A stretch of DNA of 64,000 nt, taken from positions 62,001 to 126,000 of the forward strand of contig CAADGV010000023.1 of assembly GCA_900696645.1 (NCBI GenBank). The letters run 5' to 3'. The stretch is from an uncultured Chlorobiota bacterium. Its GTDB lineage: Bacteria > Bacteroidota > Ignavibacteria > UBA10030 > UBA6906. A model generated the notes under the pieces. The model was not told the origin of the DNA and did not search any database. It saw only the letters and a program-made list of their open reading frames with translations. A program made the position numbers and the translations under genes. Shown in pieces: positions 7,667 to 35,469 of this stretch (position 1 is its first letter; the number at the start of each line of letters is the position of its first letter).

Positions 7667-9049
7667 TTACACAGCATGTTTCTTTGCAAGCGCCTTTTTC
7701 AGCTTATCCGCGTGAATACTGTTCATTCTGAACCGGATAACAATCTGTTCGCCGTGGTACTGCTTGTCCACAATCTCGGCCATGTCGTGAATTTGGGAGA
7801 TGATATGATGGTCAGCTTGGCTGAATGTCATCGTCTGCTCGGCAATATCGTCGTCGAGTAGTTCCATGATTTTCGTCTGTAGCGAGCCAAGATTGATACT
7901 GCGTGAGGCGGAAATGAACACCGCATTCGGGTATTGCTTGCCGAGAAGCGCAACAATACTCCGGTCTTCCAGCCTGTCAATCTTATTGAACACGAAAATT
8001 GTCGGTTTGTTTGCAGCGTGAAGTTCTTCCAGCGTTTCGTTTACTACTTCGATTTGGTCCTCAAACAGCGGATGGCTGATATCAACAACATGAAGCAGAA
8101 TATCCGATTCAACCACCTCTTCCAGCGTACTCTTAAATGATGCGACAAGATTATGCGGCAACTTGCGGATGAAACCGACAGTATCTGAAAGGAGTATTTT
8201 ATGCGCGGGAGAGAGACTTACCGCCCGCACAGTTGAATCGAGCGTGGCGAACAGCTTGTCTTCCACCAACACATCTGCACTGGAAAACCAATTGAGCAGC
8301 GTCGATTTCCCGGCGTTCGTGTAACCGACCAGCGCAACGCGGGGAAATTTATCCCTGCCTTTACGTTGTTCCTTCCGTTCCTTGGCTATGTGTTTGATTT
8401 TCTCCCGCAGGTGGCTGATGCGTGTGCGGATGGCGCGGCGGTCGGTTTCAATTTGCGTTTCGCCCGGACCTTTCGTGCCGATGCCGCCGAACTGCTTCGA
8501 CAAGTGAGTCCACTGCCGGGTCAGGCGGGGAAGCATGTACTGAAGTTGCGCCAATTCGACTTGTGTCTTTGCTTCTCTTGTTCTTGCTCGCGAAGCGAAT
8601 ATGTCAAGAATGATGCCGCTACGATCGACGATCTTGCATTTGATGATACGTTCGAGATTGCGGACCTGAACGGCCGAAAGATCATCATCAAACACAACCA
8701 GATTGATTCTTTCGTTCTCGACAAACTCGGCAAGTTCACGGGCCTTTCCGCTGCCGATGAAATATGCAGGGTCAATGCTTTGCCGTTCCTGAATAAGCGT
8801 CGCAACAACTTCGGCTCCTGCCGATTCAGCAAGCAGTTGCAGTTCTTCAAGATAATCCTCGACACGATTTCGCAATGCATTTGCCCGCTGGCTGCGGTCG
8901 GTTGCGAGCCCGTAATTGGCGCCGAGTTCGCTTTCCCTCAGTGTGCCGGAAAGCGCCCGTGTTGCAACGCCGATGAGAACTGCCCGTTCCTTCTCCGTTG
9001 TTGCAATCAGGTTGATGTCAGATTTTCGTTCGAAGCTCTTTGCACGCAT
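7667..9049 (-). CDS. hflX: Ribosome-associated GTPase HflX
   Basis: A 460-residue GTPase that binds the 50S subunit and splits stalled ribosomes. The N-terminal HflX domain contains the IGSGKARELAEF segment. A coiled linker with the KGPGETQIETDRR signature precedes the G domain: G1 GYTNAGKST, G3 DTVGFIRKLP, and G4 NKIDRL. Length and order match the family. Its start lies 3 bp after the stop codon of the BatA-like gene, so the two are probably co-transcribed and coupled. Confidence 0.95.
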   Translation of the reverse strand: MRAKSFERKSDINLIATTEKERAVLIGVATRALSGTLRESELGANYGLATDRSQRANALRNRVEDYLEELQLLAESAGAEVVATLIQERQSIDPAYFIGSGKARELAEFVENERINLVVFDDDLSAVQVRNLERIIKCKIVDRSGIILDIFASRARTREAKTQVELAQLQYMLPRLTRQWTHLSKQFGGIGTKGPGETQIETDRRAIRTRISHLREKIKHIAKERKEQRKGRDKFPRVALVGYTNAGKSTLLNWFSSADVLVEDKLFATLDSTVRAVSLSPAHKILLSDTVGFIRKLPHNLVASFKSTLEEVVESDILLHVVDISHPLFEDQIEVVNETLEELHAANKPTIFVFNKIDRLEDRSIVALLGKQYPNAVFISASRSINLGSLQTKIMELLDDDIAEQTMTFSQADHHIISQIHDMAEIVDKQYHGEQIVIRFRMNSIHADKLKKALAKKHAV

Positions 9050-26959: not shown

Positions 26960-27033
26960 GCCGACGTAGCTCAGTTGGTTAGAGCACCAGATTGTGGATC
27001 TGGGGGTCGCAGGTTCGAATCCCGCCGTCGGTA
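26960..27033 (+). tRNA. tRNA-His (GTG anticodon), lacking encoded G-1 and C73
   Basis: A full cloverleaf is visible: acceptor GCCGACG (26960-26966), T8 A9, D stem GCTC/GAGC, anticodon stem CCAGA/TCTGG with loop TTGTGGA (anticodon GTG at 26994-26996), 5-nt variable loop, and T loop TTCGAAT. The base before position 1 is T and position 73 is A, so the G-1:C73 identity pair of most bacterial tRNA-His is absent. Pair 1-72 is G-T and the T stem has one A-C mismatch (27011/27023). CCA is not encoded. The discriminator A73 resembles alphaproteobacterial tRNA-His. Confidence 0.92.
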
Positions 27034-27128
27034 CTGACTTCTCCCACACACGAGGATTGCAGCAGTTACACATGTCTAACGTTTGACCAACCGAGGATCG
27101 GACCTCCAGAGCCCCCAGAGGCCGCTCA

Positions 27129-32428: not shown

Positions 32429-33871
32429 ATGTCCGAACAACAAATTGTAGAGCCAAGATTGCTTCGCGGCTTTCGAGACTATCTTCCCGCGCAAATGAAT
32501 GCGCGGCTGAGGATGATCGCCGCGATCCGGAATGTGTATGAACGATACGGATTTCAACCTCTCGACACGCCGGCTCAGGAATATCGCGTCACGCTGATGG
32601 GCTACGGCGAGGAAAACACGAAGCAGATATTCGCTTTTCAGAACCCGGAAGAAGAAGACGTTGCCCTTCGCTTTGATCTCACCGTTCCGCTTGCCCGCGT
32701 TGTAGCACAATATCCCGATCTCGTGTTGCCGTTTCGCCGCTACCAGGTCGCGCCGGTGTGGCGTGCCGACAAGCCGGACCCGGGACGGTTTCGTGAGTTC
32801 ATCCAATTTGATCTGGATGCAGTAGGCACGTCATCGCTTGCAGCAGACGCAGAGATTCTCTGTGCAATGCATGATACGTTGAAGGCATTAGGCATCGAAC
32901 GCTTTAAGGTCAGATTCAGTGACAGAAAAGTGCTGAATAGCTTGTTGGACTTTGCAGGAATCTCTCACGATTCTGCGCACAGCGTCTTCCGCATTCTCGA
33001 TAAGTTGGAGAAAATCGGGATTGATGGTGTCTCCGCAGAATTGACGGAGGGGAGGATTGACGCGTCGGGAGACAAGATTCCCGGATTGGGATTGAACAAC
33101 AATCAGGTTGAGCGAATCAAGGAGTTCATTGCAGTCCCGAAAGGAAAGCGGCGTGAAGTTCTTTCCTCGCTCGAATCACTATTTACGAAAGTAGAGTCGG
33201 CGAAAGAAGCGGTTGAAGAATTGCGTTTTGTCTGTAACTCGCTTGATGCTCTTTCCATCTCTGAAGATCACGTGCAGCTTGATCTCAGTATTGCCCGGGG
33301 ACTTGACTACTACACAGGCCCCGTTTTTGAAGCGAGCCTTGACGATGCACCTGAGTTCGGCTCGGTATTCGGGGGCGGACGGTATGACGGATTGGTAGAA
33401 AGATTCCTCGGAAGAAAAATCCCCGCAGTCGGCGCCTCGATCGGTGTTGACCGGCTTTTTGCCGCAATGGAAATGCTCGGCTTGCACCGGCTTGCGCCGT
33501 CAACGGCGAAAGTCATTGTTACGGTGATGGAGCCATCACGTCTTTCTGCGTATCAGAAGCTGACACGAGAATTGCGCGAAGCAGGCATCAACACGGAAAT
33601 GTATTTGGGAGAAGAAAAGACACTCGGCAAACAATTACAATATGCCAACCGCCAGCAAATTCCTCTTGCCGTCATCATCGGCAGCGATGAGTTTGCGAAG
33701 GGTGAGGTGACAATCAAAAATCTGAAACTCGGCGGCGAGTTGCAGGATAAGAAGAAAACCGCTCAAGGCAAGGAACGCGAGGAATGGCTGAAACTTTCCC
33801 GGACAGTGCAGGTTACAGTTCCGTTAGCCGAAACAACACATCAAATTAAAAAAACACTCGAAACAATCTGA
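32429..33871 (+). CDS. hisS: Histidyl-tRNA synthetase, alphaproteobacterial/eukaryote-like type
   Basis: A 480-residue class II synthetase. Motif 1 region LRGFRDYLP; motif 2 RRYQVAPVWRADKPDPGRFR; His-specific motifs ARGLDYYTGPVFE and GGGRYDGLVERF, then motif 3 GASIGVDRL. Where the common bacterial enzyme has RPEGT and RHERPQKGRYRQF, this one has RFDLTVPLAR and the KPDPGRFREFIQFD variant, as in alphaproteobacterial and eukaryotic enzymes. The anticodon-binding domain is C-terminal (about 360-480). The encoded tRNA-His in this window also lacks G-1:C73, which fits. Confidence 0.93.
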   Translation: MSEQQIVEPRLLRGFRDYLPAQMNARLRMIAAIRNVYERYGFQPLDTPAQEYRVTLMGYGEENTKQIFAFQNPEEEDVALRFDLTVPLARVVAQYPDLVLPFRRYQVAPVWRADKPDPGRFREFIQFDLDAVGTSSLAADAEILCAMHDTLKALGIERFKVRFSDRKVLNSLLDFAGISHDSAHSVFRILDKLEKIGIDGVSAELTEGRIDASGDKIPGLGLNNNQVERIKEFIAVPKGKRREVLSSLESLFTKVESAKEAVEELRFVCNSLDALSISEDHVQLDLSIARGLDYYTGPVFEASLDDAPEFGSVFGGGRYDGLVERFLGRKIPAVGASIGVDRLFAAMEMLGLHRLAPSTAKVIVTVMEPSRLSAYQKLTRELREAGINTEMYLGEEKTLGKQLQYANRQQIPLAVIIGSDEFAKGEVTIKNLKLGGELQDKKKTAQGKEREEWLKLSRTVQVTVPLAETTHQIKKTLETI

Positions 33872-33945: not shown

Positions 33946-35469
33946 ATGTCAATAGTATTAGATGGTTCATCACTCACAATTGAAAAACTGGTTCGTATCG
34001 CACGACACGGAGAAAAAGTCGAACTTGCCCCTGCCGCGCTCGAACGAATCAAAGTCTGCCGCGCAATGCTTGAAGATAAGCTGCGGGCTAAAGAAGTCAT
34101 GTACGGCACTAACACGGGCATCGGCGAGTTTTCTGAAATTGTCTTGAATGACGAACAGGTTCGCGACTTTCAACGCTATCTGATCTATAACCACGCTGCG
34201 GGAATCGGAGACCCTGCACCAATTGAGCATATCCGCGCAGCGATGGCAAGCCGCATCAATGTGCATGCGCATGGGAACTCCGCGTGCAGGCCGGAGATTA
34301 CCATGACATATGTCGAGATGCTGAACAAAGGTGTGACACCCGTTGTGTGCCAGAAAGGATCGGTGGGTGCATGTGGCGATCTTGCCCCAATGGCACAAGC
34401 CGCATTGTTGCTTATGGGAGAAGGTGAGGCGTTCTATAACGGCGAGCGACTTCCGGGTCGTGTTGCGATGGAACGGGCGGGAATTCCTGTTCCGGGTCTT
34501 CATGCGCGTGACGGGTTGGCGGCGATAAACGGCTCAAATTTGCTTACCGCGATGAGCGCCGTTCATTTGTATGATATCAACCGATGGTTGAAGCAGGCGG
34601 AGATTGCGGCGGCAATGACGCTTGAGGCCTTGTTCGCCAATCTGAAACCGTATGATACGAGATTGCATGAGTTGCGCGGTTTCCCCGGCGCCGTCCGGAC
34701 TGCAAAAGCGATCATGCGCTGTATTCAGGGAAGCGACCTCACAACGGGTAAGATGAAAACCAAAGTCCAGGATGCATACTCTATGCGATCGACTCCGCAA
34801 GTGATCGGTGCAGCGCATGACGCCGTAGCGTGGGCAACGAAGCAAGTCGAAACCGAACTCAACGGCGTTGCAGACAATCCCATTTTCATTCCCGACGCGA
34901 AGCTTACTCTGACCGGAGCAAATTTTCAGGGGTCGCCCGTCTCGTTGCCGATGGATATGATTGGTGCAGCCGTGACGATGGTGTGTGTCCTTTCGGAGCG
35001 CAGACTGAATCGTCTGACAAATCCCGCCCTTAGCGTCGGGCTTCCTGCATTTTTGACCAAGGATCCGGGGTTCTTTTCGGGATTGATGTTGAGTCAGTAC
35101 ACGGCGGATACACTCATTACCGAGCAACGCATTCTCTCCGCTCCGGCATCGATTCTTTCTATTCCCGCGGCAGCAGATCAGGAGGATTTTGTTTCGATGG
35201 GAATGAACACTGCAATAAAGAATGGTCAGATTCTCGAGAACGCTTACGGAGTTGTCGGAATCGAATTCATGGCGGCGGCTCAAGCAATCGAGTTCCGTCA
35301 GTTTACACCGGGACTTGGCGTAAGAACGGCGAAAGATGTGATTCGCAATCATGTGAATCGTCTCGAAGAGGATCGCCCGCTCTTTCCTGATCACAACGCG
35401 ATGCAGACGCTTGTCAAGTCGTGCGAGATACTGGAAGCCGTAGAGAATACTGTAGGAAGTCTGCAGTAA
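33946..35469 (+). CDS. HAL/PAL-family aromatic amino acid ammonia-lyase with Cys in the MIO triad
   Basis: A 507-residue member of the histidine/phenylalanine ammonia-lyase family. Active-site landmarks: Tyr53 in VMYGTNTGIG, His83 in NHAAGIG, Asn195-region NGSNLLT, Tyr/Arg in VQDAYSMRSTPQV and SERRLNRLTNPALS, Glu in ADQEDFVSM. The cofactor MIO normally forms from Ala-Ser-Gly; here the tripeptide is A142-C143-G144 in GSVGACGDLAP (Cys codon 34372-34374). QEDF replaces QEDH of histidases, so the substrate may not be histidine. AAAGGA precedes the ATG; no other hut genes are present. Confidence 0.88.
   Translation: MSIVLDGSSLTIEKLVRIARHGEKVELAPAALERIKVCRAMLEDKLRAKEVMYGTNTGIGEFSEIVLNDEQVRDFQRYLIYNHAAGIGDPAPIEHIRAAMASRINVHAHGNSACRPEITMTYVEMLNKGVTPVVCQKGSVGACGDLAPMAQAALLLMGEGEAFYNGERLPGRVAMERAGIPVPGLHARDGLAAINGSNLLTAMSAVHLYDINRWLKQAEIAAAMTLEALFANLKPYDTRLHELRGFPGAVRTAKAIMRCIQGSDLTTGKMKTKVQDAYSMRSTPQVIGAAHDAVAWATKQVETELNGVADNPIFIPDAKLTLTGANFQGSPVSLPMDMIGAAVTMVCVLSERRLNRLTNPALSVGLPAFLTKDPGFFSGLMLSQYTADTLITEQRILSAPASILSIPAAADQEDFVSMGMNTAIKNGQILENAYGVVGIEFMAAAQAIEFRQFTPGLGVRTAKDVIRNHVNRLEEDRPLFPDHNAMQTLVKSCEILEAVENTVGSLQ

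Follow-up and report, generated by a model that had tools for sequence, protein, structure and literature searches.

Nearly all life uses an extra G at position -1 (G-1) of tRNA-His. In E. coli HisRS, Q118, i.e. the Gln of motif 2, acts together with R123 to read C73 and G-1 (PMC10100707). The closest described relative of the pair reported here is that of the alphaproteobacterial RRCH group (Rhodobacteraceae, Rhizobiales, Caulobacterales, Hyphomonadaceae) and most SAR11, for which A73, U72 and the anticodon form the tRNA-His identity set in Caulobacter crescentus (review, PMC9976931), G1:U72 plus A73 being the recognition set of the alphaproteobacterial HisRS (PMC7590224). Replacement of the motif 2 Gln by Gly is a feature of this type (PMC3937112, Figure S1 legend), and according to the same paper its A73/no-G-1 identity probably originated 'only once in bacteria', and it has been used as a signature that ties most SAR11 to one alphaproteobacterial clade (PMC3937112). 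The cytosolic tRNA-His of Trypanosoma brucei and Acanthamoeba likewise does without G-1, but their HisRS does not resemble the G-1-independent enzymes of bacteria (PMC4284800); a further account of G-1-independent tRNA-His names only Alphaproteobacteria and protists (PMC6471195). Our search of the open-access literature returned no report of an A73/no-G-1 pair outside Alphaproteobacteria.

The window, i.e. the whole stretch of 64,000 nucleotides analysed here, shares with the RRCH pair an unencoded G-1, G1:U72, A73, the absence of Thg1, a HisRS of the same clade and the loss of both Gln and Arg from motif 2, but differs in its host, which belongs to the Bacteroidota/Ignavibacteria by its nearest relatives and by the RpoB tree. 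As the best explanation of the sequence data, of the missing canonical parts, and of the distribution, gene trees and linkage, we consider it highly probable that the window carries a G-1-independent His pair of alphaproteobacterial type, which took the place of the ancestral canonical HisRS and G-1:C73 tRNA, its own tRNA most likely having come with hisS. The mechanism as such is already known; the hosts, the displacement within one order, the gene linkage and the grouping into a single clade that crosses phyla appear to be new.

The tRNA-His gene and its acceptor end

The features of the window are as follows:

26959, + strand: base -1, a T by base-by-base reading, expected to be removed with the leader by RNase P (predicted cleavage site)
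26960..27033, + strand: tRNA-His(GTG), positions 1-73 (ARAGORN, then base-by-base cloverleaf reading)
26994..26996, + strand: anticodon GTG (ARAGORN and base-by-base reading)
27011, + strand: A51 of the T-stem mismatch A51:C63, its partner C63 lying at 27023 (base-by-base reading)
27032..27033, + strand: U72 (T27032) and A73 (A27033), the alphaproteobacterial-type His identity bases (identity role: PMC9976931, PMC7590224)
32429..33871, + strand: hisS, the sole HisRS gene of the genome and a member of the A73-linked clade (TIGR00442, 387 bits, cut-off 286.75; single copy; tree)
32762..32800, + strand: HisRS motif 2 loop RADKPDPGRFREF, residues 112-124, with K and D at the positions of canonical R and Q

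ARAGORN calls a single tRNA in the window, tRNA-His(GTG) at 26960-27034 on the + strand, and in the base-by-base reading the span given in the preliminary description, 26960-27033, corresponds exactly to positions 1-73. This reading also bears out that G-1:C73 is not encoded, T26959 and A27033 standing in place of the canonical bases. We excluded an alternative register restoring G-1:C73, T8-A9 and the 7-bp acceptor fixing the frame. Pair 1-72 is G26960:T27032 (G1:U72), and CTGA follows A27033, supplying C74 at 27034 and leaving the remainder of CCA unencoded. Since G1:U72 with A73 is the alphaproteobacterial recognition set (PMC7590224, PMC9976931), the window tRNA is of that type at positions -1, 1, 72 and 73, and the earlier statement that it is 'not a textbook alphaproteobacterial copy' does not hold. 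Neither does the A-C pair of the T-stem mark a departure from the alphaproteobacterial type, as had been suggested: the window shares the A51:C63 mismatch with its nearest congener (G001), while a third congener (G002) has a perfect T-stem, and the mismatch recurs only in four Kryptoniota-like tRNA-His (L193, L194, L195, L198), showing no link to the identity switch. Judged by this distribution, it is a local oddity unrelated to His identity.

The possibility that the gene is degenerate, mis-assembled or a contaminant, the real tRNA-His being missing from the assembly, has in its favour that some tRNAs are indeed missing. We consider its probability negligible: the tRNA scores 70.4 bits against the Rfam tRNA model, and the same type is found in independent genomes of f1, the window's family, and of f4, a family of the same order, with a matching HisRS where both were found. 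As the tRNA-His is identical in G001 and the end pattern without a fixed G-1, with G1-U72 and A73, is common to all f1 and f4 genomes in which tRNA-His was located, it is neither a sequencing error nor a pseudogene. In the window genome, tRNA-Glu(CTC) and two tRNA-Leu have the G1-U72/A73 end as well; since this end does not by itself single out tRNA-His, the anticodon or further elements must contribute. An anticodon switch of another resident tRNA is not favoured, the best non-His tRNA of the genome (Thr) being 77% identical, compared to 85% for the best A73 tRNA-His of other phyla.

The window genome (G000; 4.2 Mb, 100% complete, 0.09% contaminated) contains one tRNA-His among its 44 tRNAs, so the second copy that the preliminary description proposed to look for is absent from this set, in an assembly that lacks some tRNAs. 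tRNA-Ile(GAT) and tRNA-Ala(TGC) are missing despite the 100% completeness, which probably reflects an unassembled rRNA operon. There is likewise one HisRS gene, and the genome has no canonical tRNA-His/HisRS pair. One f1 genome (G019) holds two tRNA-His copies (L166, L170), both of A73 type and on separate contigs.

RNase P would cut before G1, leaving a normal acceptor end of 7 bp that carries G1:U72 and A73, of which HisRS would read A73 and U72 with the help of the anticodon. A G-1 added after transcription opposite A73, giving a eukaryote-like identity, would be a different route. Eukaryotic cytosolic tRNA-His, to which Thg1 adds G-1, has A73 as its discriminator as well, and the window HisRS is nearer to the human enzyme, HARS (E 1e-61), than to E. 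coli HisRS (E 1e-28). However, U72 is an alphaproteobacterial and not a eukaryotic element, and the Thg1 family (PF04446) is absent from all 21 genomes searched, i.e. the window genome and 20 relatives, the same search being positive in Methanosarcina acetivorans. As far as a genome can tell, this answers the question raised in the preliminary description of a G added at -1, which we regard as very improbable and do not expect here.

HisRS motif 2 and its covariation with base 73

An alphaproteobacterial-type hisS near the tRNA, also noted in the preliminary description, lies 5.4 kb downstream on the same strand; directly 3' of it, again on the same strand, is hutH, encoding histidine ammonia-lyase (33946-35469). 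In the encoded motif 2, the residues facing a normal G-1:C73 would have changed from R-P-Q to K-P-D, resulting in a loop presumably no longer built for this pair. The Gln is replaced by Asp (KPDPG) and not by Gly, unlike in the RRCH enzymes with KPGPG; Gly at this position is found in Alphaproteobacteria and Hydrogenedentota. As Asp, Gly, Asn, Ala and Lys at the Gln position all occur with A73, the window pair would, to judge from these sequences, work like the alphaproteobacterial type without being a member of the RRCH sub-type.

The covariation sample comprises 87 genomes, contributing 70 A73 and 17 C73 rows. The canonical R-Q of motif 2 (R-P-Q) is present in 13/17 C73 genomes versus 0/70 A73 genomes, the remaining C73 genomes having R-T (2), R-G (1) or K-Q (1). 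At the same two positions, A73 genomes show K-G (32), K-D (28), N-K (5, Phycisphaerae with a 2-residue insertion) and single other forms, while the equivalent of R123 is kept in 86/87 rows. On the tRNA side, G at -1 is encoded by 17/17 C73 genes and by 8/70 A73 genes, 62/70 of the latter lacking it. The difference extends into the anticodon arm, A38 being found in 66/70 A73 tRNAs versus 1/17 C73 tRNAs and A31:U39 in 68/70 versus 1/17.

A single change of base 73 suffices for the 86 rows of a HisRS tree from which the motif 2 region was left out, and likewise for a tRNA tree made without positions -1, 1, 72 and 73; with only one change on the tree, the covariation is no test of repeated coevolution and a sign test has no power. 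On these trees, the tRNA trait is one that follows the HisRS gene and not the host.

Several genomes depart from the two main forms. In five Phycisphaerae loci (L074, L075, L076, L079, L082), the motif 2 loop is two residues longer (NPYEKRGRFREF) and the tRNA-His has G1-C72 with A73, which makes it a variant of the A73 system without U72. A long-branch alphaproteobacterium (G414; L239, L269) has RPGKG in motif 2 yet a G-1:C73 tRNA-His, so losing the Gln is not in itself accompanied by A73.

Distribution of the two systems in the host class and across bacteria

The nearest named relatives of the window are Ignavibacteriae MAGs, confirming the host of the Bacteroidota/Ignavibacteria group that had been proposed; with an A73-type tRNA and HisRS in such a host, the suggested non-standard His identity outside Alphaproteobacteria stands as well. 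Among 60 relatives compared, f1 and f4 have a HisRS 52-92% identical to that of the window, while the families f2, f3, f5 and f6 of the same order have distant HisRS only, the canonical HisRS of the sister families being ~30% identical over the aligned parts. All f1/f4 tRNA-His end in G1-U72/A73, and in f1/f4 genomes in which both genes were found the A73 type is always paired with the matching HisRS. The canonical pair of f2, f3, f5 and f6 has in common with the window the anticodon GTG, the cloverleaf and a class II HisRS, but differs by G-1, G1-C72, C73 and another tRNA body (20/20 tRNA-His fetched).

A search with canonical HisRS was positive in 53/61 genomes of the class, identity falling from ~60% within the order to ~45% in far families; among these 61 genomes, canonical HisRS is absent from the sampled f1 and f10 genomes and also from G464 and the 68%-complete G466. 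A73-type HisRS was found in just 5/296 genomes of the phylum, i.e. three of f1 and two of f10, a family grouping with Kryptoniota-like genomes on the RpoB tree; both f10 tRNA-His also end in G1-U72/A73. The presence of canonical HisRS throughout the class and its absence from f1 and f10 indicate that it was displaced there, and the rarity of the A73 type in the phylum marks the A73 pair as the derived, displacing one. From this distribution, the canonical system most likely came first in the class and was lost where the A73 pair now occurs; the pair would thereby have replaced the ancestral canonical HisRS and G-1:C73 tRNA in the lineage of the window. How many times it was gained in the order depends on whether f1 and f4 are sisters (RpoB AU test, p = 0.076).

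Vertical inheritance from a class ancestor with the A73 pair, the canonical families having regained the normal pair, would have to account for a canonical HisRS that is present in nearly all class families with an identity falling with taxonomic distance, and for the scarcity of the A73 type in the phylum. A single clade of f1/f4 and Kryptoniota-like HisRS, which would suit it, is neither shown nor rejected (p = 0.50), and the tRNAs of these groups are 92% alike; overall, we judge vertical inheritance improbable. In the four Kryptoniota-like loci sharing the T-stem mismatch, the tRNA-His is 92% identical to that of the window and the HisRS only ~53%, a likeness that may reflect either a separate tRNA exchange or shared ancestry.

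Beyond the phylum, relatives of the window HisRS stand under record titles of Hydrogenedentota, Planctomycetota (Phycisphaerae), Zixibacteria, Coatesbacteria, Marinimicrobia, Cloacimonadota, Verrucomicrobiota, Omnitrophota, Abditibacteriota, Acidobacteria, Nitrospirota and Alphaproteobacteria, i.e. ~12 phyla counted by record title, which can be wrong for MAGs. Where located, their tRNA-His has A73, mostly with U72, the one exception being a Patescibacterium (L095). The A73-linked HisRSs, except for L124, form one clade (SH-aLRT 95 in one tree; 98/98 in another), within which the alphaproteobacterial RRCH-type HisRS is one twig, lying inside a 100/100 group with Marinimicrobia, Coatesbacteria and a Phycisphaerales bacterium. 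Close outside rows with C73 are Alphaproteobacteria (GER[PA]Q motif) and a Patescibacterium (EKPQ). These are trees of one gene, drawing on MAGs and with sampling biased to relatives of the window HisRS, and the root of the A73 clade, hence the donor, is not settled by them.

The HisRS of L095 is sister to the A73 clade and has EKPQ in motif 2, and its G-1:C73 tRNA-His (460-536) lies 14 bp upstream of hisS (551-1798), from which we consider that the tRNA-His/hisS linkage may predate the identity switch. L124, an uncultured bacterium, has the HisRS motif EKPQ and a tRNA-His (8007-8080) with G at -1, G1-C72 and A73, a combination that looks intermediate.

Linkage of tRNA-His with hisS and the origin of the pair

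An A73-type hisS is preceded on the same strand by tRNA-His, at a distance of 23-211 bp, in 21 loci from at least seven phyla, a few of these loci being duplicates of the same genome. Their hosts are Hydrogenedentota, Zixibacteria, Coatesbacteria, Phycisphaerae, Verrucomicrobiota, Abditibacteriota, Marinimicrobia, f4 and one f1 genome (G012), the two genes being 65-181 bp apart in f4 and G012. Among the canonical Ignavibacteria and alphaproteobacterial loci searched, mostly over ~0.7-1.5 kb upstream only, not one shows this linkage, so that a linked pair in relatives of the window contrasts with an unlinked one in the Alphaproteobacteria sampled. In other f1 genomes, tRNA-His is 2.5-8.3 kb upstream of hisS on the same strand, and in at least one f1 genome on the opposite strand; the spacing in f1 gives the impression that two once adjacent genes were separated.

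The linkage suggests the pair moving as a unit, and we hold it to be likely that in the lineage of the window tRNA-His arrived jointly with hisS, as a linked tRNA-His/hisS unit. An alternative is that only hisS was transferred and the resident tRNA-His adapted in place by losing G-1 and changing C73 to A73 and C72 to U72, as Ardell and Andersson reportedly proposed for Alphaproteobacteria. Joint transfer is not decided by the tRNA sequence alone, which offers too few columns: an AU test over 71 columns does not reject f1/f4 tRNA-His grouping with their canonical sisters (p = 0.38), and the identity of the tRNA body is the same either way, 79% to the canonical sisters and 79% to the A73 tRNAs of other phyla. 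Adaptation in place would nevertheless have to explain that the whole tRNA differs from that of the sisters, i.e. in the D-stem (GCTC/GAGC versus GTTC/GAAC), at base 26 (A versus G), at 31:39 (A:U versus G:C) and at base 38 (A versus C), that these differences are mostly common to the A73 tRNAs of other phyla, and that f4, one f1 genome and members of other phyla have the two genes linked. We therefore regard a transfer of hisS only as unlikely.

Joint transfer may be part of a wider history according to which the G-1-less A73 identity arose once, outside Alphaproteobacteria, where tRNA-His adjoins hisS, and spread across ~12 phyla as an exchangeable orthogonal unit displacing the universal pair. 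We put this forward tentatively, doubt and belief being nearly balanced. Alphaproteobacteria would then be one recipient, and the trait would not be a unique alphaproteobacterial invention.

If the pair is mobile in ~12 phyla, the A73/no-G-1 identity would be weak as a unique phylogenetic marker. The enzymes with KPD, KPG and NPYEK in motif 2 would widen the choice of orthogonal His pairs available to code engineering. If true, the reading proposed here would represent a natural orthogonal synthetase/tRNA pair replacing the resident one, making a change of an identity rule testable in one bacterial order.
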